Below, piece by piece: positions 1 to 18,502 of a stretch of 64,000 nucleotides of DNA. The position numbers and the translations under genes are program-made. The first letter of the stretch is position 1. Each line of letters opens with the position of its first letter. Origin of the DNA: an uncultured Bacteroidales bacterium (GTDB taxonomy: Bacteria; Bacteroidota; Bacteroidia; Bacteroidales; FEN-979); assembly GCA_903845055.1 (NCBI GenBank), contig CAIMWF010000040.1, positions 1-64,000 of the forward strand, given 5' to 3'. A model generated the notes under the pieces. It worked only from the letters and a program-made list of their open reading frames with translations, ran no database searches and was not told the origin of the DNA.

Positions 1-729
1 GCCAGGGATATCCTCCTGGACAAGCCCATGCAGGGCGGCATCCTGCTGGGGATCGTAGACCTCGCCAAGCCCTACCTGCTCATCCTGGTCATCCCCCTCG
101 TCCTGAGAAGGAAATGGAAGACCATCGGGTCGTTTGCCGCCACCGGGCTTGCGGGGCTGGGCCTGCCGTTCGTCTATCCCGGGTTCGCGAAGAGCACCGG
201 CATGTATGGCGACTGGATCAGATCTATCATGGCGCACGGAGGGGATTACCCGGGGATGACCTCGCTGGATTATTTCTTCGGCAATCTTGTTCCTTCATGG
301 CCCGCCCGGGGAATCATCGCCATTTTTATTGTTCTCACCGGGCTGGTGGTCATTTTCATCGTGAACAACCTCAAAAAGGAAAAGGATGCGGAAAACCCTG
401 CCGGTATTACCGCCAGGAATTTAACCTTCGAGTGGTTCATGATCCTCGCACTGGTTCCGAACCTGATCAAGACCGACTGGGTGGTCATGCTGCTGAGTGC
501 CCCGCTGATCGCGTACGTCATCTTCACCATCGCAGCGCAAAAACGGTACTGGCTGATCCCGTTGCTGGCCATCCTGCTCTTTTTTTACGGGGCCAATTCC
601 GACGACCTGCTCGGCCGGGCACTTTCGCATAAAATTTTATACGCCGGTCTGATGGGGCTGGGGAATTTCCTGCTGATCCTGATGGCGGTTTACCTCTTCC
701 TCAGCCGGACCGCAAACCGGGAACCGTAA
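1..729 (+). CDS. Polytopic membrane protein, GT87/DUF2029-like glycosyltransferase, C-terminal part (5' end outside window)
   Basis: Frame is open to base 1 (ARDILLDKPMQGG...); multiple hydrophobic helices resembling the mannosyltransferase GT87 family. Confidence 0.6.
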   Translation, partial: ARDILLDKPMQGGILLGIVDLAKPYLLILVIPLVLRRKWKTIGSFAATGLAGLGLPFVYPGFAKSTGMYGDWIRSIMAHGGDYPGMTSLDYFFGNLVPSWPARGIIAIFIVLTGLVVIFIVNNLKKEKDAENPAGITARNLTFEWFMILALVPNLIKTDWVVMLLSAPLIAYVIFTIAAQKRYWLIPLLAILLFFYGANSDDLLGRALSHKILYAGLMGLGNFLLILMAVYLFLSRTANREP

Positions 730-788
730 TATTTTCAGGCAATCGGCAATCGGCAACAAAAAACGGCACCACTTCATTTGTGCTTTTT

Positions 789-823
789 TCGCTATTTCGC
801 TACCTCGCTACCTCGCTATTTCC
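789..823 (-). repeat. Short tandem repeat family A (TCGCTACC)n, with family C (CGGCAAT)n just upstream at 737-757
   Basis: tcgctatttcgctacctcgctacctcgctatttc; overlaps the dinB 3' end. Confidence 0.95.
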
Positions 824-1975
824 TTTTCCCACCGCCACTCCCCTCCTCACGATCTTCTGCCCGTATTTCCGTCTTACGCGGTCGATGGCCTGGTATAGGT
901 TGACGGCAGATACGTTATCGTCGAACATATTGAGCTGCGGGTTGCCCGAAACAAGGCTGCTGAAACGCACGCCGATGAGGCGGATCAGCATGCGGCGCTG
1001 GTAGATGCGGTCGAAAAGGTCCTTCACCACCGGGATCAGCTGATGGTCGAAAGCGGTGTAGGGAATATGCTGCTGCAGGGTGTGGGTGTCGAAGTTCGAA
1101 TAGCGGATCTTCACCGTCACGCACGAGGTAAGTTTCTGCTGGTCGCGCAATTCGAAGGCGATCTTCTCCACCATCTTCACCAGGGTCTCCTTCATCCGCA
1201 CGATGTCGATGCTGTCCTGCTCAAAGGTGGTTTCGGTGCTCACCGACCTGGCTTCGTGGTATGGACGTACCGGCGTGATGTCGATGCCATTGGCCTTCTC
1301 CCAGATCACGGCACCGTTTTTGCCCAGCACCCTTTCCATCATCTCCACCGGGATGTGACTCAGGGTATCGATGGTCACAATGCCCATGGAGCGGAGCAGG
1401 CGGTAGGTCTTCTCCCCGATCATCGGGATCTTGCGGATCGACAGGGGGGCGAGGAAGGGCTGCACCGCATCGCGCCCGATGAACAACTCCCCGTTGGGTT
1501 TGGCCTCACCGGTGGCAATCTTTGAAACCGTCTTGTTCACCGACAACCCGAATGAGATCGGCAGCCCCGTGTTGGCGATGATCGCCTTCCTCAACTCCTT
1601 GGTCCACTGAACAGTGCCAAAAAACCGGTCCATCCCTGTCACATCGATATAATGCTCGTCGATGGATGCCTTTTCATATACCGGCGCCCGCTCGGCAATG
1701 ATGTTGGTGACCGTATGCGAATACTTTGAATAGAGCTCCATGTCGCCCCGCACCAGGATGGCGTCGTTGCAAAGCGCCCTGGCCATCTTCATCGGCATGG
1801 CCGAATGAATGCCGAACCTGCGCGCTTCATAGCTGCAACTCGCCACCACCCCCCGGTCGGAGGTGCCGCCAATGATCACCGGTTTCCCCACCAGTTCAGG
1901 GCGGAGCAGCCGCTCGACGGAAACGAAGAAGGTGTCGAGGTCGAAATGGACGATATTGCGGTTTTGGGTCAGCAT
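800..1975 (-). CDS. dinB: DNA polymerase IV (Y-family)
   Basis: IVHFDLDTFFVSVERLL, SYEARRFGIHSAMPM, SIDEHYIDVT motifs; ATG at 1975 preferred over the listed TTG at 1981, which lies in a repeat. Last residues NSEVAR and stop lie in a repeat tract. Confidence 0.95.
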   Translation of the reverse strand: MLTQNRNIVHFDLDTFFVSVERLLRPELVGKPVIIGGTSDRGVVASCSYEARRFGIHSAMPMKMARALCNDAILVRGDMELYSKYSHTVTNIIAERAPVYEKASIDEHYIDVTGMDRFFGTVQWTKELRKAIIANTGLPISFGLSVNKTVSKIATGEAKPNGELFIGRDAVQPFLAPLSIRKIPMIGEKTYRLLRSMGIVTIDTLSHIPVEMMERVLGKNGAVIWEKANGIDITPVRPYHEARSVSTETTFEQDSIDIVRMKETLVKMVEKIAFELRDQQKLTSCVTVKIRYSNFDTHTLQQHIPYTAFDHQLIPVVKDLFDRIYQRRMLIRLIGVRFSSLVSGNPQLNMFDDNVSAVNLYQAIDRVRRKYGQKIVRRGVAVGKGNSEVAR

Positions 1976-1979
1976 AGGC

Positions 1980-2029
1980 AAGTAGCGAGGTAGCGAGGTA
2001 GCGAGGTAGCGAAATAGCGAAATAGCGGG
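1980..2029 (+). repeat. Short tandem repeat family A (GGTAGCGA)n/(AAATAGCG)n
   Basis: aagtagcgaggtagcgaggtagcgaggtagcgaaatagcgaaatagcggg. Confidence 0.97.
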
Positions 2030-2036
2030 AGTTCGG

Positions 2037-2423
2037 TTAGATTGAGGGAGTTCTTTTGAGTTTGAGTTTTTTCTTGATGGATGAAAATATTCTCAGGAAC
2101 TCTTCAGCCTCGCCAAGCAAATCTTTAGCCTGTGCCGCGTTCACAATTCCAACCTCCATGAGAAAGTCAATCCAGAACAACGTTTCATCAATTTCTTCGA
2201 CTACGATACAGATTTTTGAATAATATTCCGCTTCAGACCTTCCCCTTGTGGCCGAATAGCAATTCGCGGCAACAGACGATGAACACCTTACCAGTTGTTT
2301 CAGCGGAATCCTGCTGAGTTCATTCATTTTTACCATGCTCACTCCTTTAAAAACCCTGATCGCAAAATTTCGTGTCCGGGCTCTCATGACCTGGTTAAAT
2401 TCATTGATATCATACTTTTTCAT
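2037..2423 (-). CDS. Four helix bundle protein (23S rRNA intervening-sequence protein / bAvd-like fold)
   Basis: 128 aa; SRIPLKQLVRCSSSVAANCYSATRGRSEAEYYSKICIVVEEIDETLFWIDFL is typical of the S23/IVP four-helix bundle family. Confidence 0.85.
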   Translation of the reverse strand: MKKYDINEFNQVMRARTRNFAIRVFKGVSMVKMNELSRIPLKQLVRCSSSVAANCYSATRGRSEAEYYSKICIVVEEIDETLFWIDFLMEVGIVNAAQAKDLLGEAEEFLRIFSSIKKKLKLKRTPSI

Positions 2424-2497
2424 GTGGCTGCGTTTTACCTGTTTAATCCGGCTTCATGCCAAAAGGTAATACACAAATTCAATTATTTTTTCATTTT

Positions 2498-2523
2498 TCG
2501 CTACTTCACTACCTCGCTACCTT
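2498..2523 (-). repeat. Short tandem repeat family A, inverted relative to 1980-2029
   Basis: tcgctacttcactacctcgctacctt. Confidence 0.9.
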
Positions 2524-2603
2524 GATATTTTTATATTATCTTTGACGGATTATTAATCATTTTTCCGACTACAATATAATCATTTATTTTAAAACTGTCA
2601 AAT

Positions 2604-3407
2604 ATGTTTTTCAGCAACAATATAAAATTTCTGCGGAAACGCCGGGGGCGCACGCAGGACGACGTGGCGACGGCCATCAGCATGAAGCGGTCAACGCTCA
2701 GCGGGTATGAAAACAATGTCGCCCACCCGGGCCTGGAAGCGCTGATCCTCTTTTCCAATTATTTCAACATCGCCATCGACACCCTCATCAGGACCGACCT
2801 CTCTTCGCTTTCCGAAAGCCAGCTGCGGCAGATCGAACGGGGGTACGATGTTTACCTCAAGGGAAGCAACCTCAGGGTGCTGGCCACCACGGTAAATGCC
2901 AGCAACGAGGACAACATCGAACTTGTCTCCGAGAAAGCGAAAGCAGGATATACCGGTGGCTTCGCCGACCCCGAATACATCAGCATCCTGCCGACCTTCA
3001 GGCTCCCCTTCCTGTCGAGGGAAAAAAAGTACCGGACCTTCCAGGTCAGCGGCGACTCGATGCTGCCGATCCCCGACGGTTCATGGGTGACCGGGGTCTT
3101 CATCCAGGACTGGACCACGCTTCGCGACAAGGATGCCTACATCATCCTCACCATGGAAGAGGGCATCGTTTTTAAAGTGGTGGAAAACCGCATCAAGCCC
3201 GACGGGAAACTCGTCCTGCATTCGCTCAACCCGCTCTATGAACCTTACGACATCAGGATCAAGGACATCCGCGAGATCTGGCAGTTCGTCCATTACATCA
3301 GCCCGAAACTCCCCGAGAACCTCAATTCCGAGAACTATCACCTGGTTGAAACCGTCAGGCAGCTGCGCAACGATATCAGGGCCATCCAGACCCGCCTGAA
3401 CATCTGA
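2604..3407 (+). CDS. XRE-HTH transcriptional regulator with LexA/S24-type peptidase domain
   Basis: N-terminal HTH (RTQDDVATAISMKRSTLSGYENN); SGDSMLP serine, VFKVV lysine and an Ala-Gly in KAGYTGG. Confidence 0.85.
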   Translation: MFFSNNIKFLRKRRGRTQDDVATAISMKRSTLSGYENNVAHPGLEALILFSNYFNIAIDTLIRTDLSSLSESQLRQIERGYDVYLKGSNLRVLATTVNASNEDNIELVSEKAKAGYTGGFADPEYISILPTFRLPFLSREKKYRTFQVSGDSMLPIPDGSWVTGVFIQDWTTLRDKDAYIILTMEEGIVFKVVENRIKPDGKLVLHSLNPLYEPYDIRIKDIREIWQFVHYISPKLPENLNSENYHLVETVRQLRNDIRAIQTRLNI

Positions 3408-3534
3408 CCAGGCCCGGTTCCCGGCTTGCCCGGCCCCGATGAAATTTTTTTACATAAGCGAATAAAAATAATTCCAATTCCCCATTTAATCAATATATTT
3501 GTTTACTGTAAGTAAAAACCAAAATCTCCACCCC

Positions 3535-4872
3535 ATGAAAGTTACCATCGTTGGTTCCGGGTACGTCGGATTAGTGACCGGGACCTGTTTCGCAGAAGTC
3601 GGGATCGAAGTCACCTGTGTTGACATTGACCAGAAAAAGATCGAAAACCTTAACAATGGAATTATCCCTATTTATGAGCCGGGACTTGAAGAGATGGTCC
3701 ACCGGAACATGAAAAAGAAGGATCGGCTTCATTTTACCACCAACATTGCCGAAGCCCTCGAAGATTGTGAGGTGGTATTCAGCGCCGTCGGCACTCCTCC
3801 CGACGAAGACGGCAGCGCCGACCTGCAGTACGTTGTCAGTGTGGCACGCGATTGCGGCAAGCACATGAAGGATTACCTGCTGATTGTCACCAAAAGCACG
3901 GTGCCGGTCGGTACAGCCGAAAAGGTAAGGAAAGCTGTACAGGATGAACTGGATAAAAGAGGCGTAAATATTCCGTTCGATGTTGCATCAAACCCCGAAT
4001 TCCTCAAGGAAGGTGCAGCCATTGACGATTTTCTCAAACCCGACAGGATCGTGGTCGGCTGCGATTCACCCCGCGCTGAAGAGTTGATGAAGGAACTTTA
4101 CAAGCCCTTCACCCTGAACGGACACCCTGTCATTTTCATGGACATCACCTCGGCCGAGATGACAAAATATGCCGCCAATTCCATGCTCGCCACGAAGATC
4201 AGTTTCATGAACGATGTGGCCAACCTGTGCGAGATCGTCGGCGCCGACATCAACATGGTCAGGAAGGGAATCGGTTCGGACACCCGCATCGGCAACAAGT
4301 TCATCTATCCAGGTGTCGGATACGGCGGATCCTGTTTCCCGAAGGATGTCAAAGCTCTGATCCACACTGCAGAGGACTACAATTACAGCCTGCGCGTGCT
4401 GAAAGCAGTCGAGGCGGTCAACGACGATCAGAAATCGGTTCTCTTCAATAAATTTGTAAAGCATTACAATGGTGATATCGCAGGGCGGACGGTCGCCATG
4501 TGGGGGCTGTCCTTCAAACCCCAGACCGACGACATGCGCGAAGCTCCCTCGCTGGTGATCATCAAAAAACTGCTCGATGCCGGGGTCAAAGTCAAGGCCT
4601 ACGACCCTGTGTCCATCCATGAAACACAGCGCATCCTGGGTGATGCCATCTACTATGCACCCGACCAGTACGACGCCCTGATCGACGCCGACTGCCTGAT
4701 GCTGGTCACCGAATGGCCGGAATTCAAATTCCCGAATTTCAACATCGTCAAGAAACTGCTGAAAGACCTGGTGGTCTTCGACGGCAGGAACATTTACGAG
4801 ATCGCCGGGATGAAACGCAAAGGATTCGCCTACTACTGCATCGGGGTTGACACAACCAGGCAGCCAGTGTAA
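3535..4872 (+). CDS. ugd: UDP-glucose 6-dehydrogenase
   Basis: [39 protein letters not shown] active-site Cys motif; ATG at 3535 preferred over listed TTG. Confidence 0.95.
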
Positions 4873-4923
4873 TATTTGCTGACCGGCCCGGATCGGGCTG
4901 AAACATTGTTAAAACTGCTCCCG

Positions 4924-4980
4924 CTGAAGAGGTTGCCATAGAAGTACGATAAAAACGGGCTTTTTTGGCGACCTCTTCAG
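4924..4980. promoter_or_regulatory. 14 bp inverted repeat with 29 nt loop, right arm within the uxs promoter spacer
   Basis: CTGAAGAGGTTGCC (4924-4937) vs GGCGACCTCTTCAG (4967-4980), one G-U; TTTG 4964-4967 and TAATTTTG 4989-4996. Confidence 0.75.
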
Positions 4981-5015
4981 GAATTATCTAATTTTGTTAT
5001 TTAAAACCAGGTACC

Positions 5016-5954
5016 ATGATCAGGAAAAAGATTTTAGTCACCGGCGGAGCAGGATTCCTTGGCTCCCATCTTTGTGAAAGGTTGCTCCGGGAAGGCAACG
5101 AAGTTGTATGCCTCGACAACTATTTTACCGGTCAGAAGCAAAATGTGGTGCACCTGCTGAGCAACCCGTTTTTTGAACTGGTCCGCCACGATGTGACCAT
5201 GCCTTTTTTCATCGAGGTCGACGAAATATACAACCTGGCATGCCCGGCCTCGCCGATCCATTACCAGTACAACGCCATCAAAACGGTGAAAACCTCCGTG
5301 ATGGGCGCCATCAATATGCTCGGCCTTGCCAAACGCATCAAGGCCCGCATCCTGCAGGCATCCACCAGCGAGGTGTACGGCGACCCGGAGGTTCATCCGC
5401 AGGTTGAATCGTACTGGGGCCATGTAAACCCCATCGGCATCCGTTCCTGCTATGACGAGGGAAAACGCATCGCCGAAACCCTTTTCGTCAACTACCACCA
5501 GCAAAACAATGTCAGGATCAAAATCATGAGGATCTTCAACACCTATGGACCCCGCATGCACCCGAACGACGGCCGCGTGGTGTCAAACTTCATCGTACAG
5601 GCGCTGAAGGGACAGGATATCACCATGTACGGCGATGGTTTGCAGTCACGGAGTTTCTGTTACGTGGACGATCTCCTGGAGGGGATGATCCGCCTGATGA
5701 ACTCAAGGGAGGACTTTACCGGCCCGGTCAACATCGGCAATCCCAATGAATTCACCATGCTCGAACTGGCTGAAAAGGTAATCCGTTTCACCGGCTCAAA
5801 ATCAAAGATCATCCACATGCCGCTGCCTGCTGATGATCCCACACAACGCCAGCCGGATATCACCCTGGCCCGAAAAGAGCTGGGATGGGAGCCGAAGATC
5901 ATGCTGGACGAAGGCCTTGTCAAAACAATCGATTATTTCAGGTCGATCGTCTGA
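5016..5954 (+). CDS. uxs: UDP-glucuronate decarboxylase (UDP-xylose synthase), NAD-dependent epimerase family
   Basis: [62 protein letters not shown]. Confidence 0.92.
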
Positions 5955-6844
5955 TGAACCAACCCGATCCGTTTATGAACATTCTTGTTACCGGTTCCAA
6001 CGGCCAGCTTGGAAGCGAACTGCGAATGCTGGCACCCTCCTTTCCCAGGATACGCTTCATTTTTACCGATGTGGCCGAACTGGACATTACCAGCGAAACG
6101 GCCATCGGCATCATGATGTCCGAAGCCAGGCCTGCCGTGGTCATCAACTGCGCGGCCTATACCGCGGTTGACAGGGCGGAATCTGACGCGAAAACCGCCT
6201 TCCTGATCAATGCTACCGCCGCCGGCAACCTTGCCGTGGCTGCTGCAAAACACAAGGCATTGCTCATCCATGTTTCCACCGACTACGTTTTTGACGGGAA
6301 AAGCTACACCCCCTACCGTGAAGATGACCCGGCAAGCCCGGTCTCGGTGTATGCCCGGAGCAAACATGCCGGTGAACTGCTGGTCCATTCCATGGCTTCG
6401 GATGCGGTTATCCTGAGAACCTCCTGGCTCTATTCGGAATTCGGTCATAATTTCATCAAGACGGTCATGAAACTGGGGAGGGAACGCGGGGAGATGAAGA
6501 TCGTATTTGATCAGACCGGCTCGCCCACCTATGCACGCGACCTTGCGAAAGTCATCCTGGAGATCGCCCTCCGCAGCAACGAGGTGAAGGGTGTTGAGGT
6601 ATTCCATTATTCGAACGAGGGGGTGGCCAGCTGGTACGATTTGGCGCAGGCCATTGCCGGTTTCGCAGGGATTGAATGTAAAATCCACCCAATCCTGACA
6701 AGCGAATATCCACTGCCCGCAGTAAGACCTTTTTACAGTGTCTTTAACAAATCAAAGATCAGGGAGCGGTTCGGGCTTACAATCCCTTACTGGCGCGACA
6801 GCCTCAGGGAATGCATGGTCAGGATCGCCTTGCCCGGACGGTGA
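5954..6844 (+). CDS. rfbD: dTDP-4-dehydrorhamnose reductase
   Basis: MNILVTGSNGQLGSEL; STDYVFDGKSYTPYREDDPASPVSVYARSKHAGE; start overlaps uxs stop (TGATG). Confidence 0.9.
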   Translation: MNQPDPFMNILVTGSNGQLGSELRMLAPSFPRIRFIFTDVAELDITSETAIGIMMSEARPAVVINCAAYTAVDRAESDAKTAFLINATAAGNLAVAAAKHKALLIHVSTDYVFDGKSYTPYREDDPASPVSVYARSKHAGELLVHSMASDAVILRTSWLYSEFGHNFIKTVMKLGRERGEMKIVFDQTGSPTYARDLAKVILEIALRSNEVKGVEVFHYSNEGVASWYDLAQAIAGFAGIECKIHPILTSEYPLPAVRPFYSVFNKSKIRERFGLTIPYWRDSLRECMVRIALPGR

Positions 6845-6848
6845 CCAG

Positions 6849-6870
6849 TCACGCAATACATGATGCGTGA
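6849..6870. terminator. Hairpin TCACGCA-N8-TGCGTGA immediately after rfbD
   Basis: 7 bp perfect stem 5 nt after the stop codon; no strong U tract. Confidence 0.4.
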
Positions 6871-6933
6871 TATGCGTTAAATGATACCCTGTCCGTATTC
6901 AGATTAATTGATAACCAAAATACAAAAATACCC

Positions 6934-8670
6934 ATGGAAACAGATGGTTCGGTATTAATCCGCGCACAGCAATGGCTCAAAGGAAATTTTGACGAAGAAA
7001 CCAGGAAGGCAGTAGGAAAACTGATCGATACAAACCCTGCAGAACTGACGGATTCATTTTACCGCGACCTCGAATTCGGGACCGGGGGTCTCCGGGGGAT
7101 CATGGGCGTGGGTACAAACCGGATGAACAAATACACCGTGGGCATGGCCACCCAGGGCCTGGCCAATTACCTGAAAATGATGTTCCCCGATCTCCATCCT
7201 GTAAAAATGGCCATCTCGCACGACAGCCGCAACAACAGCAAATTTTTTGCCCGGATCGTTGCGGAGGTGCTCTCGGCAAACGGTTTCAGGGTTTACCTGT
7301 TCGATGACCTCAGGCCGACGCCAGAGCTTTCTTTTGCCATCAGGCAACTGGGATGCCAGAGTGGCGTCATGGTTACCGCCTCGCACAACCCGAAGGAATA
7401 CAACGGCTACAAGGCATACTGGGTCGACGGGGCGCAGATGGTTGCGCCTCATGATGAAAACGTGATCAGCGAAGTACAGAAAATCACCACGATCGACGAT
7501 GTCAAATGGACCGGTATTCCCGCGAATATCGTCAGTATCGGGGAGGAGATCGACCGGTTGTACCTGGACCGGGTTGTAGCGCTGTCGCTTTCTCCCGAAG
7601 TCATCCGGCGTCAGAAAAACCTGAAGATCGTTTATACGCCGCTTCACGGGTGCGGCAGGAAACTTGTTCCCGACGTCCTTGCGAGGTTTGGGTTTGAAAA
7701 TATCCACATGGTTCCCGAACAGGCCATCGCCGACGGCAATTTCCCGACCGTTCATTCACCGAACCCCGAGGAACATGATGCGCTCGACATGGCCATCAAC
7801 CTGGCAGAGAAACTCCATGCCGACCTGGTCATGGCCACCGATCCCGACGCTGATCGCGTAGGTATCGCCATCAGGGACCGGCATCAGCGGATGATCCTTC
7901 TGAACGGAAACCAGACCGCTGCCATCCTTTTCTACTACATCCTGAACAGGTGGAAGGGATTGGGAAAAATGAAAGGCAACGAGTTTATTGTTTCAACCAT
8001 CGTAACGACCAAACTTCTCTCTGAAATTGCATCCTCTTTCGGGGTGAAATACTTTGAATGCCTTACCGGCTTCAAATATATCGCCGACGTAATCAGACAG
8101 CATGAAGGTACCCTGGAGTTCATCGTCGGGGGCGAAGAGAGCTACGGATACCTGATCGGCGATTTCGTCCGCGACAAAGACGCCGTCAGCGCCTGCGCCA
8201 TGATTGCCGAAACTGCGGCATGGATGGCCGACCAGGGAAAAACGCTGTTTGACCTGCTCCTCGAAATATACCGTGAATACGGATTCTTCAAGGAGGGACT
8301 GATCTCTGTTACGCGGAAAGGGAAATCCGGCGCCGAAGAGATACAGCAGATGATGGTGGATTACAGGAACTCCCCGCCCCTATCGATCAACAATTCACGC
8401 GTGGTTCGGATCAATGATTTCCTCCTGCAGAAAACAACCGAGGTTTCCACGGGTATACAAATACCGGTCAACCTGCCAAAATCGAATGTCCTCCAGTTTA
8501 TCCTCGATGACGGAAGCATTGTCAGTGTCCGCCCTTCGGGAACCGAGCCCAAGATCAAGTTCTATTTCGGGGTTCGGGAAAGGCTGTCGGGCAGCGACGA
8601 TTTTGAACCATGTGAAAAACGCCTTGATCAGAAAATTTCCGACATCATTGCTTCAATGAAGCTCAGATAA
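6934..8670 (+). CDS. Phosphoglucomutase / phosphomannomutase (alpha-D-phosphohexomutase)
   Basis: TASHNPKEYNGYKAYW, MATDPDADRVGIA, GGEESYGYLIGDFVRDKDAV, RPSGTEPKIKFY. Confidence 0.93.
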   Translation: METDGSVLIRAQQWLKGNFDEETRKAVGKLIDTNPAELTDSFYRDLEFGTGGLRGIMGVGTNRMNKYTVGMATQGLANYLKMMFPDLHPVKMAISHDSRNNSKFFARIVAEVLSANGFRVYLFDDLRPTPELSFAIRQLGCQSGVMVTASHNPKEYNGYKAYWVDGAQMVAPHDENVISEVQKITTIDDVKWTGIPANIVSIGEEIDRLYLDRVVALSLSPEVIRRQKNLKIVYTPLHGCGRKLVPDVLARFGFENIHMVPEQAIADGNFPTVHSPNPEEHDALDMAINLAEKLHADLVMATDPDADRVGIAIRDRHQRMILLNGNQTAAILFYYILNRWKGLGKMKGNEFIVSTIVTTKLLSEIASSFGVKYFECLTGFKYIADVIRQHEGTLEFIVGGEESYGYLIGDFVRDKDAVSACAMIAETAAWMADQGKTLFDLLLEIYREYGFFKEGLISVTRKGKSGAEEIQQMMVDYRNSPPLSINNSRVVRINDFLLQKTTEVSTGIQIPVNLPKSNVLQFILDDGSIVSVRPSGTEPKIKFYFGVRERLSGSDDFEPCEKRLDQKISDIIASMKLR

Positions 8671-10701
8671 ATGTTCGCCCACCGGCCGGTTCCCTGGTTT
8701 TTTCCGAATTCAACCCTGCTGGTTTCCAGGATTACCTGCGGCATCTTTGCCCTGGCATTGCTGTTACCGGCTCCGGGCCGCGGCGATCCTCCCCCCATGC
8801 GGAAGGAAAAAAACCCGCACCACGGGGCCGATACAGTTTTTGTTTGCAAAGGGTTGTACATCCTGACGATGAGTCTCATGGTCAAGGTTCCCCGCGACAC
8901 AAGTTATGTCATTCATCATCCTACCGGCAATATCTACGACTCTTCCGGCTACCGGAAATCGAAGGTTTTTTATGATACCGTGTATAATAAGTTCAACCGG
9001 TCGGCGATCACAAAACTGATTTACCCGCTTGCCTTTCATGAACCGAAACAATCAAACCTGCCGGATACGGTCCAGGTTATGAAAGGAACTTCACCTTTTG
9101 AGGTTGCAAAAGGCAAAATCATCCGGAATATCCGCATTGAAGTGCTATCCCCTTTCGGGACAAGCATATACGACACCTGCAGCTACGCGCAGACGACCGC
9201 AGGAAAAGCCCTGAACAGCGTTCACCGCAACACCCGGCAATTCATCGTACGACGAAACCTGCTCTTTAAAAAAGGTGACCGGGTAAATCCCGGCCTGCTC
9301 GCCGACAATGAGCGTATCCTGAAGGAGATCAACGCAGTTGACAATGCCCGCATCATTGTCACGCCCACCGGCCCTGGGAGCGATTCGGCCGACCTGGTGG
9401 TCCTTGTAAAGGATGTATGGACCATCGGGCTGGACGTACCGTTCATCTCATCAGAAAAGATTGGCCTGCGTATCTTCGATGCAAACTTCCTGGGCCTGAG
9501 CGACCGGATCACCGCCAAGATGTCGGTGAATCCCTACCGGGCACCCCTTTACCGCCTGGATGGATTGACCTACACGCATCCCAACATTGGCGGTTCCTTT
9601 ATCAATGCAACCCTCGATTATACGCGAAGCGACCCGGGTGAACAGAACCTCTCTGCAACCTTTGACCGCGCGTTCTATACCAACCAGACCCGGTGGGCCG
9701 GGGGCCTTGTGATCGCCTGGAGAGAGGAAGTCAATGAAATTAAAAATTCAAAGCCCGACATTGCATACTCCGGCAATGAATCGCTATGGCTGGGATTGGC
9801 CTCCCTCCTCAACGGACCATCGGCGACTTCGCGCGCAGTAGTTACTGCCGGCATTTCCCGGAACGAATTTTCATCACGTCCCTATGTCTCCATCGATTCG
9901 AACCGGAATTATTACAACCACCTGCAGTTTCTTTCTGCCTTGTCCCTTTCAAAAAACAACTATTACCTGACCGACTTCCTTTTTGATTTCGGGAAAACGG
10001 AAAACCTGCCTTACGGGCACCTTTTCCAGGTGACAGGGGGGTACGACAAAACCGATTATTATGCGCGCATTTATGCCGGGGCGGTCATTTCCGGGGGGAA
10101 TTTTTTCAACAGGGTCGGGTATCTCGAAGCCTATGCCAGGTTCGGCGGTTTTCTTGATGCCTCCAGGGTTGAAGACGCGGTGATCAAATTCAACCTGAGT
10201 TATTTTACACCGCTGATCAAGACAAGCGAAAGGGGCTACAAATACAGGTGTTTTTTCCTGGCCGATTATCGCCATGTTTTCAACCAGCGCTCCAACAACC
10301 GAGACTATTACAACGCAAACCTGATTTTCAACATCGATAAGATCAACAACCCCGCGGAATTCAGGGGAGCAAATTTCATTTCGGTGCGAACGGCTATGAA
10401 ATGCTTTACCCCTTGGTATTTCTATGGGTTCCGTTTTGCCCTGACCGCCGATCTCCAGTCGGGGCTGGTTTCTCAAAAAGATGAACCCCTGGTACATGCA
10501 TCCCTTTTCTCTGGCATCGGCGTTGGTATTGTCATCAAAAATGATAACCTGGTATTTCCTGCCCTCTCCATTTCAGGATACTATTATCCCTCATCAGCCT
10601 GGGATATAAGCGAGTTCCAGTTTGTGATCAATTCGAGGATGAACGTGGCATTTTACAATTTCAACGTCAGCGCCCCCTATGAAGAATCGCTGGGGAATTG
10701 A
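8671..10701 (+). CDS. POTRA plus outer-membrane beta-barrel protein (BamA/TamA-like surface antigen family)
   Basis: Start directly follows pgm stop; FIVRRNLLFKKGDRVNPGLLADNERILKEINAVDNARIIVTP resembles a POTRA unit, followed by a beta-rich region. Confidence 0.6.
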   Translation: MFAHRPVPWFFPNSTLLVSRITCGIFALALLLPAPGRGDPPPMRKEKNPHHGADTVFVCKGLYILTMSLMVKVPRDTSYVIHHPTGNIYDSSGYRKSKVFYDTVYNKFNRSAITKLIYPLAFHEPKQSNLPDTVQVMKGTSPFEVAKGKIIRNIRIEVLSPFGTSIYDTCSYAQTTAGKALNSVHRNTRQFIVRRNLLFKKGDRVNPGLLADNERILKEINAVDNARIIVTPTGPGSDSADLVVLVKDVWTIGLDVPFISSEKIGLRIFDANFLGLSDRITAKMSVNPYRAPLYRLDGLTYTHPNIGGSFINATLDYTRSDPGEQNLSATFDRAFYTNQTRWAGGLVIAWREEVNEIKNSKPDIAYSGNESLWLGLASLLNGPSATSRAVVTAGISRNEFSSRPYVSIDSNRNYYNHLQFLSALSLSKNNYYLTDFLFDFGKTENLPYGHLFQVTGGYDKTDYYARIYAGAVISGGNFFNRVGYLEAYARFGGFLDASRVEDAVIKFNLSYFTPLIKTSERGYKYRCFFLADYRHVFNQRSNNRDYYNANLIFNIDKINNPAEFRGANFISVRTAMKCFTPWYFYGFRFALTADLQSGLVSQKDEPLVHASLFSGIGVGIVIKNDNLVFPALSISGYYYPSSAWDISEFQFVINSRMNVAFYNFNVSAPYEESLGN

Positions 10702-10754
10702 AATCCGGGAAAGAAAATGTAGCTTTACACCGTGAAATGTTTAAACGAGATATC

Positions 10755-11303
10755 ATGACCGAACCCATCCATCCTGCCGGGGAAGACCCTGTCTATTCTA
10801 GGAAAGTACTTGAAATGCTTACTGTTGCCAATGAATACTGTCTTTTCCTTGAAAAGGCCGAGGCCTATTCCGCCGAGGAACTACTGAACTTCCTGCAGAA
10901 AATATCGCCCCTGATCTACCTGAAAGGGAGTCTGCTCCCGGAGACCGGCGTGGAGGACGAGGATGCAACCGAACACTACGTTAGCGAAGAACAGTGGGAG
11001 CACCTTTTCAACCTGCTTCACAACAAGTTCGGCGACCGGGACCTGTTTTTCTTTGTCGACCGGCAGGAGAAAAGCCACAACGATCCGGTCAAAGGAAGCC
11101 TTGCCGAATGTTTTACCGACATATACCAGGATCTTAAGGATTTCCTGTTGTTATACCAGAATCCACTCAAATCGTTCAAGGCGAATGCGGTCAGGGATTG
11201 CAAGCGCCTGTTTGAATCACGTTTCGGCTACAAACTCACCGTTGTGCAACCCGTAATCCATTGCCTCCTGTTTCCGGGTGAAACGAATGATTACAATTTT
11301 TAA
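10755..11303 (+). CDS. DUF5063-like protein
   Basis: YSRKVLEMLTVANEYCLFLEKAE...LLNFLQKISPLIYLKGSLLPE...YVSEEQWE. Confidence 0.7.
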   Translation: MTEPIHPAGEDPVYSRKVLEMLTVANEYCLFLEKAEAYSAEELLNFLQKISPLIYLKGSLLPETGVEDEDATEHYVSEEQWEHLFNLLHNKFGDRDLFFFVDRQEKSHNDPVKGSLAECFTDIYQDLKDFLLLYQNPLKSFKANAVRDCKRLFESRFGYKLTVVQPVIHCLLFPGETNDYNF

Positions 11304-11349
11304 ACACTTAACCCTAACTTCCCTATATTTGTAACAAATACTTCATATC

Positions 11350-11694
11350 ATGATCAACCGCCAGGACTTCAATGATTTTTACAGTGAAATGGAACCGGAG
11401 AAAGTTGTCATGACCATCAACGATTACCTTGCTGCCTATGATGAGTACATTGTTGAAATTCGCAGGAATGTTGAAAAGAAGGATTTTGAACGTCTGAAAT
11501 ACTATTCACACAAACTGGCCGGTGTTATCGGTTTCTTTTGGGATCCCGACAGCCATGGAGCTGCGCAGCGGTTTGAACAGATGGCCACGGATAAAACCGA
11601 GGCAGGTCTGAACGAAAGGTATGAAGATCTTGTAAAGAAGTCCTTGTTGCTCAACAAGGAATTACTGGAGATCAAGAAAGAATATTTATCATAA
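11350..11694 (+). CDS. Stand-alone HPt-like phosphotransfer domain protein (copy 1)
   Basis: YYSHKLAGVIGFFWDP resembles the HPt His motif (HxLKG); all-helical 114 aa. Confidence 0.6.
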   Translation: MINRQDFNDFYSEMEPEKVVMTINDYLAAYDEYIVEIRRNVEKKDFERLKYYSHKLAGVIGFFWDPDSHGAAQRFEQMATDKTEAGLNERYEDLVKKSLLLNKELLEIKKEYLS

Positions 11695-11706
11695 AACCAT
11701 GATAAC

Positions 11707-12048
11707 ATGATAGATCGTAAATTACTAAACGATCATTTCCTTGGTGATAACGATTTTATCGTTACCCTCATCGACCAGTATTTTCCCGCCTATGATGATT
11801 ACATGGGAAAAATCAGGGCTGATCTTGAATCGCGAAACTTTGAATCACTTGCATTTTTCGCACACAAACTGAAAGGCCTCATCGTTCTCTTCTGGGACCC
11901 CGTTGCAACCGAAATAGCCGAAAGATTTGTCAGGATGGCCAAGGACAAATCAGAAACAGGGCTGGAAAATACCTTTAATGAGCTGGAGACAAAATCCATC
12001 GCTCTTAATGAAGAGATCAGGCTGCTAAAGCAGGAGTTTACTTCCTGA
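11707..12048 (+). CDS. Stand-alone HPt-like phosphotransfer domain protein (copy 2, paralogue of 11350-11694)
   Basis: FFAHKLKGLIVLFWDP; similar along full length to the preceding ORF. Confidence 0.6.
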   Translation: MIDRKLLNDHFLGDNDFIVTLIDQYFPAYDDYMGKIRADLESRNFESLAFFAHKLKGLIVLFWDPVATEIAERFVRMAKDKSETGLENTFNELETKSIALNEEIRLLKQEFTS

Positions 12049-13063
12049 CGTGTTTATCAAGTCGGTTGAGCCCTTCGATCGCCTTGTCGTAGTTGACCTC
12101 GATCTTGAGCGATGCCTGGTAATCCTCATACGCTTTCCTGTAATTACCCGACAATTCATAAGCGTACCCCCGGTTGAAATAGGCCTGGTAATAGGCCGGA
12201 TCCTTTTTCAGCGACTCGGTGAAGTAATGCTGCGCCTTTGCAAAATCCTTGATATAGACAAGGTAAATATAACCGATGTTGTAGGAAGCCTCCCTGAAGG
12301 CTGTATCAAAACGCGACAATGCCTGGTACGATTCAATAGCAAGATCGTACCGGCCGGTTTCCTGGTAAAACAATCCGAGCATGTACATGGCTTCACGGCT
12401 GTGGGGCCTGATATTCAGCGCATTTTTAAGATAAAGCACGGCCATCGGATCTTTTCTCATGGAATAAAGTTCGCCTAACTGCACATATGCCTCATAGTAT
12501 TTCTGGTTCTTGTCAACCGCCTGCATCAGGTCGCCAACGGCATGAATGGTATCGCCCTGTTCGAGGAGCGCGACAGCCCTCGTAAAATAGGCCGAAGCAT
12601 TGCCGTTGTCTATCGCAAGAAGCTGTTTTACCGTTTCGTAGCAATTCCTATAGTCCTTGACGATCAGGTACAGCTTGGCCAGTTTTAACAAGGCTTCCTT
12701 GTCTTCCGCGTTGATTTCGACAGCCTTTTTCAGGGCGTCACGGCTTCCATCGGGTTTACCCATCAGGAGATAGATGTCGGAAAGGGTTGTATAATAAACC
12801 GATTTCTTTGCATCAAGTGAAATCGCCCTGTTCACATCGGTGAGCGCCCTGTCAAACTGGTGATCGGTCAGATAGCATTTGGCACGCTGGTTGTAGAGCT
12901 CAGGATTTTTTAAATCCTGCTGGATCTGCTGGGAAAGGTTTTCAATCTTTACCATCGTCGAATCAGCCCCGGCCGAAGCCTTCCGGGAGGCCCCTCCCCC
13001 GTCCCTGTGACAGGAACAGAATGAAATCAGGATCAGAAAAGTAAAAATGATTCTGTTTTTCAT
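12038..13063 (-). CDS. TPR-repeat lipoprotein
   Basis: Signal sequence ending FCSCHRDGG; repeated ALTDVNRAISLDAK / AYFNRGYAYELSGNYRKAYEDYQ TPR units. Confidence 0.85.
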   Translation of the reverse strand: MKNRIIFTFLILISFCSCHRDGGGASRKASAGADSTMVKIENLSQQIQQDLKNPELYNQRAKCYLTDHQFDRALTDVNRAISLDAKKSVYYTTLSDIYLLMGKPDGSRDALKKAVEINAEDKEALLKLAKLYLIVKDYRNCYETVKQLLAIDNGNASAYFTRAVALLEQGDTIHAVGDLMQAVDKNQKYYEAYVQLGELYSMRKDPMAVLYLKNALNIRPHSREAMYMLGLFYQETGRYDLAIESYQALSRFDTAFREASYNIGYIYLVYIKDFAKAQHYFTESLKKDPAYYQAYFNRGYAYELSGNYRKAYEDYQASLKIEVNYDKAIEGLNRLDKHVRK

Positions 13064-13067
13064 GCTG

Positions 13068-14072
13068 CTAATTATGAGGATTTAACACTGCCATGATCTT
13101 GCCTTCCAGTTCATCTGCAAGTTCAAGATTGTCCTGCAGTATCTTCTTCACGGCGTCACGTCCCTGGCCCAACTTTGTATCACCGTAGCTGAACCACGAC
13201 CCGCTCTTCTTGATGATGTTGAGTTCGGTGGCGAGATCGATAATCTCAAAGGGTTTGGAAATTCCTTCACCAAAAATGATGTCGAACTCCGCCTTGCGGA
13301 AAGGGGGGGCCACCTTGTTTTTTACCACTTTTACCTTTACATGGTTCCCAACGATCTCTTCGCCTTCTTTCAACTGGGTCTGCTTCCGAATGTCAAGCCG
13401 GACCGATGCATAGAACTTCAGCGCATTGCCGCCCGTCGTGGTCTCGGGATTGCCGAACATCACGCCGATTTTTTCACGGAGCTGATTGATAAATATGCAA
13501 CAGGTGGATGTTTTGCTGATGGTCGAAGTGAGCTTCCTCAGCGCCTGCGACATCAGCCTCGCCTGCAAACCCATTTTCGAATCGCCCATCTCGCCTTCGA
13601 TCTCACTTTTCGGTGTCAGGGCCGCCACCGAGTCGATGACAATGATATCGATCGCCCCTGAACGGATCAGGTTTTCGGTAATCTCCAGCGCCTGCTCCCC
13701 GTTGTCGGGTTGCGAAACCAGCAGGTTCTCGACATCAACGCCCAGCTTTTGTGCATAAAAACGGTCAAAGGCATGCTCGGCATCGATAAACGCCGCAATG
13801 CCGCCCAGTTTTTGAGCCTCCGCAATGGCGTGCAGCGCCAGCGTTGTTTTCCCCGACGACTCGGGTCCGTATATTTCTATGACTCGCCCTTTGGGCAGTC
13901 CACCAATTCCCAAGGCCGCATTGAGCCCGATTGACCCGGTCGAGATTACCTCAACCGCCTCTATGGCACTGTCTCCCAACCTCATGACCGTTCCCTTGCC
14001 ATAGGTCTTTTCCAGCTTATCCAGCGTAAGCTGTAAAGCCTTTACCTTTTCTTTGTTTACTTCGTTTGCCAT
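13068..14072 (-). CDS. recA: Recombinase A
   Basis: [20 protein letters not shown] Walker [36 protein letters not shown]. Confidence 0.99.
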
Positions 14073-14094
14073 TGTTGTTTCCTCCCCTTTTTAT

Positions 14095-14174
14095 GAGACG
14101 CATGCGATGCGTCTTTACGTTGAGACGCACTGTGGTGCGCCTTTACTCCTGTCGGGACGCACTGCGGTGCGTCC
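14095..14174. repeat. Three tandem degenerate GACGCA...TGCGTC palindromes between bcp and recA
   Basis: 14097-14113 GACGCATGCGATGCGTC; 14124-14141 GACGCACTGTGGTGCGCC; 14155-14174 GGACGCACTGCGGTGCGTCC. Confidence 0.85.
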
Positions 14175-14178
14175 ATGC

Positions 14179-14649
14179 TCAGAGGCTGAGGCCCGGGGCC
14201 TGCAGGATCTGCGCAGTGTGATTTTTCGTGTCCACCTTCTCAAAGATGTGCAGGATGCGACCATCTTCCCCGATGATAAAGGTCATCCGAAGGATTCCCT
14301 CATATTCTTTACCATAAAGTTTCTTTTTACCCCACACGCCATAATCATTGATGATCTTTTTTGCTTTATCGGGTATGAGGGCAAAAGGTAATACGTATTT
14401 TTCAGAAAAATTTTTATGCGATTTTTCATCGTCTGCGCTGACACCGATGATATTAAACCCTTTCTCCATGAGAACCTGGTAGTTATCCCTTAGATTGCAC
14501 GCTTCTGCCGTGCAGCCGGGGGTGTTGTCCTTTGGATAAAAATAGAGGATGACTGTGCTTCCCCTGAAGGACGCCAGGGAAATTTCATTTCCGTGCTGAT
14601 CAATTCCCCGGATTTCGGGTGCCTGATCTCCAACTTTTAACTGTGCCAT
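14179..14649 (-). CDS. bcp: Thioredoxin-dependent thiol peroxidase (peroxiredoxin Q/Bcp)
   Basis: YFYPKDNTPGCTAEACNLRDNY. Confidence 0.95.
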   Translation of the reverse strand: MAQLKVGDQAPEIRGIDQHGNEISLASFRGSTVILYFYPKDNTPGCTAEACNLRDNYQVLMEKGFNIIGVSADDEKSHKNFSEKYVLPFALIPDKAKKIINDYGVWGKKKLYGKEYEGILRMTFIIGEDGRILHIFEKVDTKNHTAQILQAPGLSL

Positions 14650-14751
14650 ATTCAGTTCCAGGATTACAGATTTTCATGCGGCTTACAACCTTCAAAATTA
14701 GAAATTAATGGCTGAAGAGCACCCTATTCCATTGTTGAGTTATCAACAACT

Positions 14752-15414
14752 TTATGTTGCCTGATCCGTCAGGAAATATTTGCAGAAGGCGCTGATCCCG
14801 CATTCATGGCACTTTGGTTTACGGGCAGTGCATACGTACCTGCCGTGCAGGATTAGCCAGTGATGAGCGATGGAGCGCAGGTTTTCGGGTATGTGAGCGA
14901 TTAGTTGCGCCTCTGTCTGTAAAGGATTTTTGGCGCCGGTTGTGAGACCGATCCTGGCAGCCACGCGGAACACATGGGTATCGACGGCAATGACTGGTTT
15001 GTCGTAGATCACGGAAGCAAGAACATTGGCCGTTTTCCGGCCGATCCCGGGGATATTCTGGAGTTCGCCGATATCCGAAGGCAGCACACCTCCGTATACC
15101 GTTACCACTGTTTTTGCCATACCGACCAGGCTCCTGGTTTTGTTGTTCGGGTATGTGCAACTTCTGATCAGGTTAAAAACATCGGCAGGATCAGCCCCTG
15201 CAAGCGATACGACATCGGGAAAACGCCTGAAAAACGGAGGGGTTATGATGTTCACCCGCTTGTCGGTGCATTGTGCCGAAAGGATGACGGCAACCGTCAG
15301 TTCGTAGGGATCGGTATAGACCAGTTCTGTTTCAGCTGTGGGACTGTGTTCCAGGAAATAGCCGAGGACCTTCCTGAACCTTTCTTCTTTTCGCATGGGA
15401 AAGAGTTTGGGCAA
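14752..15414 (-). CDS. nth: Endonuclease III
   Basis: [41 protein letters not shown]-terminal C-X6-C-X2-C-X5-C cluster. Confidence 0.97.
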   Translation of the reverse strand: MPKLFPMRKEERFRKVLGYFLEHSPTAETELVYTDPYELTVAVILSAQCTDKRVNIITPPFFRRFPDVVSLAGADPADVFNLIRSCTYPNNKTRSLVGMAKTVVTVYGGVLPSDIGELQNIPGIGRKTANVLASVIYDKPVIAVDTHVFRVAARIGLTTGAKNPLQTEAQLIAHIPENLRSIAHHWLILHGRYVCTARKPKCHECGISAFCKYFLTDQAT

Positions 15415-15499
15415 AATTGCAAAAAAACCGGGATTAATCCACTAATTTTGTCTGCCGGATGCCTCCCTGACAGCAGGAAATCCGTTAACCATTCGCTCT

Positions 15500-16732
15500 A
15501 TGGCTCAAAACCAGTATGATCTCATCATCGCCGGTGCCGGACCGGCCGGGTGCACCCTCGCCCTGAACCTTTCGGGCCGGGGATTGCGCATTGCGGTGAT
15601 CGAAAAGGATGTTTTTCCCAGGCACAAGATCTGCGGCGATGCCCTGAGCGGCAAAGTGCTCAATGTTCTCAAAAGAATGCCGGGCGGGGTTTATGCTGAT
15701 TTCCTGCGCGATGCCGGCAAAGTCGCATCTTGGGGCATCCGGTTTACAGCACCGAACGGCCACGGGCTTGATGTTCCGTTCGTTCAGGAAAGGGCTCCCG
15801 GGACACCCCCGCCGGGATATGTTTGCAGGCGGGAGGATTTTGACAATTTTTTATTTCAGAGGCTGAAATTGTGCAGTGACATCGATATTTTCGAAGGAGA
15901 AAAAGTCACCGGTCTTGCCTTCACCCCCGACGCCGCCCTTGTGGAAACCGGCATCCGCGCGCTCACCGGGAAAATTGTAGCCGGGGCCGACGGCGTCCAT
16001 TCGGTGATCCGGAAAATGACGATCGGGGACCCTCCCGACAAGCGGCATTTCTGCGTCGGGATTCGCGCCTATTATAAAAACGTGACGGGTCTCCATCCCG
16101 ACAACTTCATCGAACTCATCTTCCTCAAAGAATTGCTTCCGGGGTACTTCTGGATATTTCCCTCAACCGGGGGGCTGGTCAATGCGGGTTTCGGAATGAT
16201 GCACGAACAGGTGGTAAAACTGGGGGAAAACCTTAACCAGGTTTTGAACCGTCTGGTAAGCTCACATCCCTTGATCGCCCCAAGGTTCAGGAATGCGGAA
16301 ATTTCCGGCAGGGCCGAGGCCCATTCCCTGCCCCTGGCCTCCTTTCATCCCAAACGTTCGGGCGACCGGTTCCTGCTGCTTGGCGATGCCGCCTTCATGG
16401 TGGATCCATTCAGCGGCGAGGGGATCGGCAATGCCATGGGGACAGGTGAAATTGCAGCCTCGGTTCTTGAAAATTGCTTCAGAATCAATGATTTTTCGGC
16501 CGGGGAACTTCTCAAATTCGAAGCCGGGATCGGGCGCAGGTTTTCACAGGAGTTCAGAACCACATCGGTCATGCAACGGCTGGCAGGGTCACCCTTTCTT
16601 TTCAACCTGGTGGTTGACAAGGCACGAAAAAATAAAAACCTGCGCGATCTGCTTACGTCGATGTTTACCAATGAAGATATGAAGGAAAAACTTACCCGGC
16701 CGGGGTTCTATGCGGGTTTACTCTTCAAATAG
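15500..16732 (+). CDS. Geranylgeranyl reductase-like FAD-dependent oxidoreductase
   Basis: DLIIAGAGPAGCTLALNLSGRGLRIAVIEKDVFPRHKICGDALS; LLGDAAFMVDPFSGEGIGNAMGTG. Confidence 0.85.
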   Translation: MAQNQYDLIIAGAGPAGCTLALNLSGRGLRIAVIEKDVFPRHKICGDALSGKVLNVLKRMPGGVYADFLRDAGKVASWGIRFTAPNGHGLDVPFVQERAPGTPPPGYVCRREDFDNFLFQRLKLCSDIDIFEGEKVTGLAFTPDAALVETGIRALTGKIVAGADGVHSVIRKMTIGDPPDKRHFCVGIRAYYKNVTGLHPDNFIELIFLKELLPGYFWIFPSTGGLVNAGFGMMHEQVVKLGENLNQVLNRLVSSHPLIAPRFRNAEISGRAEAHSLPLASFHPKRSGDRFLLLGDAAFMVDPFSGEGIGNAMGTGEIAASVLENCFRINDFSAGELLKFEAGIGRRFSQEFRTTSVMQRLAGSPFLFNLVVDKARKNKNLRDLLTSMFTNEDMKEKLTRPGFYAGLLFK

Positions 16733-16747
16733 GAGGAGGGAGGCCGG

Positions 16748-17866
16748 TTATTTGTCACGCAGGATGGTGACAGAACCTTTGAAAAGGTCATCACCATACT
16801 GACCCTTGCACTGGAGAATGTAAAAATAGGTCCCGTCGGAAAGGTTTGAGCAATCCCATTCCTCGCTCTTGAAATTTGTCTTGTTGAAGACCTTTTTTCC
16901 CCACCGGTTGAAAACGATCAGTTCATTGGACAGGTATGCGTCCCGGAAATCTTTCAGGGGCAACCCCATGATCTGGACCTGGAAGGAGTCGTTTTTTTTG
17001 TCGCCGTTTGGCGTCAGGACATTGCCGATCTGCAATTCGACCACATTTACCTTCAATTGGTGCGTGATGGTCGTATCGCAGCCGTTCAGGTCGGTAAAGT
17101 TAAGACTGACAATAAACAGCCCGGTTCTTTTATAGGTATGCCCGGCCGGGTTGAGGTTCGTGACTTTGGTGGTATCCCCGAAATCCCAGGTCCAGTTTGT
17201 AAGGTGTTTCTTCATCGAATCGGGAAAAACAACCTGGATATTCGGGTTTGTAAGGTATATTACGGTATCCTTGGGCAGGATGTCGAAATCGATTTTGGGC
17301 GATTTGAGTACATCCACGAAATAGGCGGTGTCGATGGTACATTGAACCGAGTCGGTGACCAGAAGGTGCGAGCGGCCGTGACACAATCCGAAAACCAGGG
17401 TATCCTGGGAGAACCCGCCGTTCCAGTTATAGGTGTAGGGAGGGTAAATCTTACTCCTGGTACCGCCCGAAACAAGCACCTTGAATTGTCCCTTGCAATC
17501 TTTGATACACCCCAGGCTGTTATAGCGGTAAAGGGTGTCGATATTCATTTTCGGATGCATTTTCAGCAGCGCCTGGTTGCTGGTATCCGTCATCCCCCCG
17601 GCTGTAACGATGCACCGGTAAATCCCTGCGGAACTTCCTTTCACCCTGAGGATTTTATACACTGAATCCGCCGCCCCGGCGATGTCGATGAAATTCCACT
17701 GCCAGCGATAGGCAATGGCAGCACCCCCCGCTCCCGTTACAAGTGTTGTGAAAATAATGCTGTCGCCGTAACATGCGGTGGTGTCTGCCGGTTTGATGGT
17801 GACGGACACCTGTCCAAGGACGGTGATGCTTGCAAAAATGGATAAAATGATCAGGAGATGTTTCAT
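16748..17866 (-). CDS. Secreted protein with PKD-like domain and CHU_C/T9SS type B sorting domain
   Basis: NVLTPNGDKKNDSFQV...LIVFNRWGKKVFNKTNF...LSDGTYFYIL. Confidence 0.88.
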   Translation of the reverse strand: MKHLLIILSIFASITVLGQVSVTIKPADTTACYGDSIIFTTLVTGAGGAAIAYRWQWNFIDIAGAADSVYKILRVKGSSAGIYRCIVTAGGMTDTSNQALLKMHPKMNIDTLYRYNSLGCIKDCKGQFKVLVSGGTRSKIYPPYTYNWNGGFSQDTLVFGLCHGRSHLLVTDSVQCTIDTAYFVDVLKSPKIDFDILPKDTVIYLTNPNIQVVFPDSMKKHLTNWTWDFGDTTKVTNLNPAGHTYKRTGLFIVSLNFTDLNGCDTTITHQLKVNVVELQIGNVLTPNGDKKNDSFQVQIMGLPLKDFRDAYLSNELIVFNRWGKKVFNKTNFKSEEWDCSNLSDGTYFYILQCKGQYGDDLFKGSVTILRDK

Positions 17867-17954
17867 CTGGGTGTAATACTGCAGCAAAAATAAGAATTTC
17901 TTTGATTCAGGCCACGATAAAGATCAAACGCTCAAAGCCGGTCAATTAGTATGG

Positions 17955-18317
17955 TCAGAACTGATTGTTTGAAATCATGATGAGGGTGCAGGCATGTACT
18001 ACCTCGATCCCCGCCGCCTCGAGGATGCCGGCAAATTCGGGAGACTCGGTACCGGGATTGAAGATCACCCTGCTGGGTTTCAGCCCCAGGATGTAGTCGT
18101 AATAGGCGGGTAGGTTCTTCGGCCCGATGTACAGGGTGACCGTGTGTATGTCTTCGAATTTCGGAAAAGGTTTTTCAATCCTTACCCCGCTGATCTCCCC
18201 TTCACGCAACCCCACAGCTACAACAGGCACATTGCTGTATTTCAGTTTCCTGACAGCCATGTAGGCAAAACGTTCCGGGTTCGTGGTGGCACCCAGGACC
18301 AGGGTCTTTTTTTTCAC
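17955..18317 (-). CDS. CoA-binding (YccU-like) protein
   Basis: TLVLGATTNPERFAYMAVRKL...RVIFNPGTESPEFAGILEAAGIEVVHACTLIM. Confidence 0.85.
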   Translation of the reverse strand: MKKKTLVLGATTNPERFAYMAVRKLKYSNVPVVAVGLREGEISGVRIEKPFPKFEDIHTVTLYIGPKNLPAYYDYILGLKPSRVIFNPGTESPEFAGILEAAGIEVVHACTLIMISNNQF

Positions 18318-18496: not shown

Positions 18497-18502
18497 ATTC
18501 AT

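Follow-up and report, generated by a model that had tools for sequence, protein, structure and literature searches.

A four-helix-bundle gene between mirrored short-repeat arrays and behind a competence-type promoter motif: a candidate foldback cassette in Bacteroidales

The stretch analysed here (the window) is a 64,000-nt piece of contig CAIMWF010000040.1 (assembly GCA_903845055.1) from an uncultured Bacteroidales bacterium, whose draft genome comprises 3.95 Mb on 175 contigs. As Table 1 shows, a gene for a small four-helix-bundle (4HB) protein lies between dinB and a divergent XRE-S24 regulator gene and is enclosed by inverted tandem arrays of an octamer. An earlier note had described this arrangement from the letters of the window, and the open reading frame (ORF), the profile scores and the complementarity of the arrays all bear it out. 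The divergent dinB/XRE-S24 pair is conserved, and the 4HB gene with its inverted octamer arrays sits inside the pair as a cassette of about 550 bp. The right array (2498–2522) is the reverse complement of the left array (1982–2027), and the arms at 1980–2014 and 2496–2530 are 86% complementary over 35 nt. The 15-mer GTAGCGAGGTAGCGA was matched 15 times in the window with at most two mismatches, against 0.06 matches expected from shuffles. Between the arms and upstream of the gene, TTACCTTTT-N-GATTAA was found at 2443–2469, a motif that recurs before DNA-uptake genes, as described below.

Table 1. Features at and around the 4HB locus, with positions in the window
Feature	Position	Strand	Remarks
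4HB (four-helix-bundle) gene	2037–2423	-	128 aa; PF05635/TIGR02436; pI 9.5; nearest solved structure 2rld
Upstream arm, between the 4HB and XRE genes	2498–2530	-	sense GGTAGCGAGGTAGTGAAGTAGCGAAA; tandem octamers at 2498–2522
Competence-type promoter motif TTACCTTTTGGCATGAAGCCGGATTAA	2443–2469	-	within the arms, 19 nt upstream of the 4HB start codon
Downstream arm	1982–2027	+	GTAGCGAG four times, then AAATAGCG twice; period 8, 93% matches; adjoins the dinB start codon
dinB (DNA polymerase IV), left host gene of the cassette	800–1975	-	
XRE-S24 (LexA/CI-like) regulator, right host gene of the cassette	2604–3407	+	conserved next to dinB whether or not the 4HB gene is present
Third array, same repeat family, at the dinB 3' end	787–822	-	overlaps the dinB stop codon

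The 4HB protein scored 38.9 and 56.1 bits against PF05635 and TIGR02436, with cut-offs of 33.8 and 24 bits, respectively. It also matched the solved structure 2rld (five chains; E 5.6e-10), and the predicted four-helix-bundle fold is assigned from this match. No Y1 (HUH) transposase domain was found, as the window protein matches PF05635 only. An identity as a defence or phage gene was rejected, with no match for the protein among the PADLOC and PHROGs models. A structured-RNA family was likewise rejected, Rfam giving no match in positions 1–20000 of the window.

The real pattern around 4HB genes is one of mirrored tandem arrays of 7–9-mers that flank the gene on both sides, with a unit that differs by locus; most arms consist of 7-mers and some of 8–9-mers. 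In the same genome, a reading of the flanks of the remaining 4HB genes revealed inverted tandem arrays at nearly all of them, with the units ACAAGGTG, CTAATTA, GATTTGAG, GATTTAC, GAATGCAG and GAATATC at loci L001, L002, L003, L004, L006 and L008, respectively. Each 4HB locus has its own unit, and the octamer of the window is not shared by the other 4HB genes. Arms were scored by reverse-complementing the right flank of a gene and aligning the left flank with it. Statistics for the own genome come from 464 kb of stretches together with whole-genome pattern and profile searches. The window gene scored 26, and a score of at least 21 was reached by 6 of 9 4HB genes of the genome and by just 3 of 377 other ORFs, which served as controls. 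The same score was reached at 11 of 28 4HB loci in a phylum sample, and family-wide homologs of the window protein scored at least 20 in 24 of 28 cases, with a median of 32. We also scored 80 named GTDB loci spread over Bacteria and Archaea, namely Bacteroidota, Ignavibacteria, Clostridia, Desulfosarcina, Paceibacterota, Gemmataceae, Alphaproteobacteria and Methanophagales; the named relatives of the window 4HB family belong for the most part to Bacteroidota. At least 22 was reached by 35 of the 80 loci, whereas the count for neighbouring ORFs was 25 of 347 (Fisher p 5e-14). The corresponding shares were 1.9% for mismatched flanks and only 12.5% for the same 4HB flanks when aligned in direct orientation.

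The arms also have a polarity. Among 58 cases with arms scoring at least 20, the upstream arm had a G-rich sense strand in 55 and a C-rich one in a single case, compared with 16 of 33 control arms G-rich (p 1.6e-15), which indicates that arms and gene belong together in a fixed orientation. The association of 4HB genes with repeats stands, and very strongly, for inverted arrays of any unit. For family A, the repeat GTAGCGAG itself, it does not, so that the lack of a genome-wide link to family A, which the earlier note had named as a refuting outcome, is literally the case: the repeat occurs at 175 places genome-wide with at most one mismatch (none in the reversed control), and nearly all of these are distant from the ten PF05635 matches of the genome. 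Only one of about ten 4HB loci has family A, and family A was ruled out as a specific partner of 4HB genes.

dinB and the XRE gene adjoin each other throughout the family, and several families of the order share this adjacency. Genomes with a 4HB cassette at this site were G000 (the genome of the window), G007, G009, G016, G020, G022, G101, G105, G123 and G124, together with G014, where the locus lies at a contig edge. The arm units at the site were GTAGCGAG, GTAGCGAA, AAATGGTG or AAAAGCG, mirrored in every case where both arms are present in the sequence. The earlier note had named a dinB–4HB–XRE order conserved across distant taxa without repeats as an outcome that would refute its reading. 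This order extends over several genera of the family with inverted arrays in every case, so that the refuting condition does not apply. Across ten genomes, the match between the two arms at this locus was better for true pairs than for swapped ones (sum 324 vs. 227 expected; permutation p 1.5e-4, with relatedness incompletely controlled). In further genomes, the dinB–XRE site had one array by itself or no array at all; G019 had an inverted array pair with no gene in it, and an ORF6N gene was present in G004 and G008. Sites without a gene often retained one array. Many genomes keep the dinB–XRE pair with no 4HB gene, a distribution that does not support an obligate dinB–4HB–XRE SOS unit.

A second site, between nuoJ and nuoK, was found to hold a 4HB gene with GAATATC arms, a decayed 4HB gene, a GxxExxY gene, a lone array or 16 bp. 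In G012, the GxxExxY gene lies within the same outer stem as the 4HB form. The 4HB gene and its inverted repeats behave as the discrete unit that had been suggested, present or absent between relatives at both sites. From substitution values (dN 0.12–0.36, with dS saturated), the 4HB protein is judged to be under purifying selection.

Two further observations were made in the dinB–XRE intergenic region. The ORF6N-domain genes of G008 (L019) and G004 (L022), which occupy the position that the 4HB gene has in other genomes, have a variant of the competence motif and no arms. A conserved direct repeat, TAATCAT...TATAATCAT, lies upstream of the XRE gene at 2550–2585 of the window and at most dinB–XRE loci; it is possibly an XRE operator that is independent of the 4HB cassette.

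The pattern TTACYTTTN{10,14}GATTAA, to which the motif in the window belongs, had 22 matches in the whole genome (G000, loci L205–L226) and none in the reversed control, typically 10–40 nt upstream of a start codon. The extended consensus adds GTTNATAA on the upstream side and GCA after GATTAA. The genes behind these 22 places include ssb, UPF0102, comEC, radC, comF, comM, a tyrosine recombinase and genes for secreted proteins, as well as three 4HB genes and GxxExxY genes and relics. Genomes of the genus and family had 1–43 matches each, mostly well above the reversed control (0–3). In three related genomes, 60 motif places precede dprA (twice), further comEC, ssb and comM genes, seven 4HB genes, and genes for GxxExxY, Y1 transposase (Y1_Tnp) and ORF6N proteins; all seven of these 4HB genes have inverted arrays that lie outside the motif. 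The streptococcal core late-competence set of the SigX regulon likewise includes comEC, comFC, dprA, radC and ssbB under one promoter motif (PMC5069739). The two regulons differ in their promoter sequences, and the set found here adds 4HB, GxxExxY, Y1_Tnp and GIY-YIG cassette genes. Judged by gene content, TTACYTTTN{10,14}GATTAA is a candidate late-competence promoter motif, and the genes that share it a candidate late-competence set. No description of a promoter motif of a Bacteroidota competence regulon was found in the literature searched. At the window locus, dinB comes to lie behind the competence-type promoter of the cassette, an effect that could be of importance in itself.

An element about 0.8 kb long was also observed in multiple copies (L041, L042, L045, L205, L209 and L210). 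It has terminal inverted repeats, GCTACTCTTTATACACATC and GATGTGTATAAAGAGTAGC, and within it this motif stands before a GxxExxY gene or its relic.

In a second family (G077 and G093; loci L348–L397), an unrelated, ECF-like motif, TGTAAGGAN14-15GTCT, precedes 4HB, comM, radC, ssb, integrase-like recombinase, Y1_Tnp, GIY-YIG, DUF559 and GxxExxY-like genes. A recognisable shared motif was not found in the comEC upstream regions of G077 and G074, and the competence link in G077 and G093 comes from comM, radC, ssb and the recombinase. That two unrelated promoter sequences each accompany this combination of uptake and cassette genes argues strongly for the proposed link to competence. The earlier note had read dinB and the XRE-S24 regulator as a plausible SOS pair. 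A reading of competence is preferred here because the motif of the 4HB gene is common to comEC, comF, comM, ssb, radC and dprA.

On balance, and with little more than even confidence, we read the 4HB gene as the cargo of a foldback cassette linked with natural transformation, which consists of a G-rich repeat arm followed by the competence-type promoter, the 4HB gene and a complementary C-rich arm. This reading starts from what the sequences display, namely mirrored arms with a locus-specific 7–8-mer, the orientation of the arms, presence or absence and gene swapping at the same sites, the shared motif, and the signature of selection. The 4HB gene would be expressed upon import of single-stranded DNA (ssDNA), and the single-stranded cassette, or its transcript, would fold back on the arms so that the gene forms the loop. 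The 4HB protein, which is basic and probably oligomeric, would then bind the folded arms and favour retention or copying of the cassette during transformation, while scattered genomic arrays would serve as landing homology for its persistence or spread. Cutting and joining might come from co-regulated enzymes (Y1 transposases, the tyrosine recombinase, and GxxExxY or GIY-YIG nucleases) or from host recombination.

Several points weigh against this reading. Several 4HB genes of the own genome have no competence motif, and the assignment to competence was drawn from gene content. About half of the 4HB genes from distant phyla have no clear arms, and 34 of 41 intergenic arrays sampled in the 464 kb of the own genome have neither an inverted partner nor a 4HB gene. 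No transposition event or fresh insertion was seen among the compared genomes, and identical copies of a cassette at different sites were not found. At dinB and at nuoJ–nuoK, the appearance is that of an old cassette with repeated losses and not of a recent insertion.

The 4HB protein might instead be an ordinary host accessory of transformation that handles imported ssDNA and has no selfish mobility. Its arms would then be RNA elements that limit or stabilise expression by closing the transcript into a stem, which RNase III might cut in the way known from the intervening sequences of 23S rRNA. Such a role would fit the promoter in common with late-competence genes, the purifying selection on the protein, the long retention at the dinB site in different genera and the way the arms follow the polarity of the gene (55 of 58). 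The transcript is moreover predicted to fold far better than shuffles (z -4.4), the paired arms forming a stable stem. However, the patchy presence, the replacement of the cargo by GxxExxY or ORF6N genes at the same sites and the multi-copy scatter resemble mobile cassettes and not a core host gene, and we consider a purely host function unlikely.

We give about as little credence to the arms as mere scars, left where 4HB and similar genes entered pre-existing short-repeat arrays or palindromes that are idle afterwards. Solo arrays are indeed common (41 intergenic arrays in 464 kb and 175 GTAGCGAG places), one array is often kept at empty sites, and the dinB site of G019 consists of a bare inverted pair. 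However, a gene entering a single array would have equally oriented repeats on its two sides. Entry into random palindromes in either orientation would not yield the sense-strand G bias of 55 in 58, nor would it keep two arms matched across the divergence of genera. That the arms are bidirectional terminators or insulators, protecting dinB, nuoK and the XRE gene from the competence promoter of the cassette, seems very improbable: they do separate the cassette from the next gene on both sides and pair into a stable predicted stem, but a single arm is a tandem repeat and not a self-complementary hairpin, so that termination would need pairing across the gene, and a T-run is not consistently present after the arms.

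Arrays of the same kind occur elsewhere in the genome. The third array in the window (787–822) is complementary to 1991–2022 of the left array at 32 of 32 positions, which exceeds the right arm of the 4HB gene itself. Arrays of the 7-mer AGGCAAT lie about 10–35 bp from GTAGCGAG-type arrays three times and in both orientations (window 738–822, 26502–26567 and 37524–37623), and the two families form a recurring composite. Composite arrays were also found at 56982–57057 (ATTTACG and AGTGACG) and 60073–60125 (GTCACTC and AAATCGT), which repeat each other in inverted orientation at a distance of about 3 kb. At L057:793-2276, a perfect 38-nt inverted pair of AAATCGT arrays surrounds a gene for an FkbM-type methyltransferase and an EF-P-like gene. 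With this pair framing other genes, and with most sampled arrays lacking an inverted partner, it was ruled out that every repeat array is part of a 4HB cassette.

The nearest described element is the intervening sequence of 23S rRNA, for example that of Coxiella burnetii, in which an S23/IVP ORF lies in terminal inverted repeats (with a 28-bp stem in Coxiella), and for which mobility has long been suspected and is unproven (PMC4990558). In both cases, a 4HB ORF is enclosed by stem-forming terminal inverted repeats. The window cassette differs in that it lies outside rRNA, between dinB and the XRE gene, that its arms are locus-specific tandem 7–8-mers, and that a competence-type promoter separates arm from gene; it is therefore like an intervening sequence and not one. 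REPtrons consist of a RAYT/TnpA-REP gene flanked by inverted REP sequences of a family that is also dispersed between genes. The window cassette similarly has a small gene, predicted to encode a nucleic-acid-binding protein, between inverted repeats of a genome-dispersed family, and Y1 transposases belong to the same candidate regulon. However, the repeat here is a tandem array of a short unit that changes by locus, whereas that of REPtrons is the REP palindrome, and the 4HB protein has no known catalytic site. Eukaryotic foldback (FB/TU) elements have terminal inverted repeats made of short tandem repeats around a loop that may bear genes. The likeness is one of form only, as the cassettes here are bacterial, 500–700 bp long, with a unit of 7–9 nt and a single 4HB gene. 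The bAvd protein of diversity-generating retroelements is likewise a basic, nucleic-acid-associated protein of the 4HB fold family. No reverse transcriptase or template/variable repeats were found beside the window gene or in the 4HB neighbourhoods read, and no dedicated genome-wide search for reverse transcriptases was made. Intergenic heptamer direct repeats (TAACTGA) of unknown origin have been described upstream of start codons in Bacteroidetes, cyanobacteria and Beggiatoaceae (PMC4679880). They resemble the arrays here as short tandem intergenic 7-mers and differ in being direct repeats, for which no inverted pairing around a 4HB gene was reported.

In the literature searched, with partial coverage, no report was found that links 4HB genes to inverted arrays or to competence. 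We tentatively propose, as a wider and clearly less secure idea than the cassette itself, that an unrecorded class of foldback mobile cassettes exists in Bacteroidota and probably beyond. These cassettes would spread by natural transformation, their arms would form a hairpin in imported ssDNA, and a competence promoter would drive a small 4HB, GxxExxY, GIY-YIG or Y1 protein that acts on the hairpin; the intervening sequences of 23S rRNA would be members that landed in rRNA hairpins. The S23/IVP 4HB family has been an orphan since its discovery in these intervening sequences of suspected mobility. The mirrored arms, and a promoter common with DNA-uptake genes in two bacterial families with unrelated promoters, now give two handles on this family. 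The two promoter motifs are candidate markers for competence regulons of Bacteroidota. If the proposal is true, natural transformation would be accompanied by small mobile cassettes of its own, and the heptamer arrays dispersed through many genomes would be accounted for.
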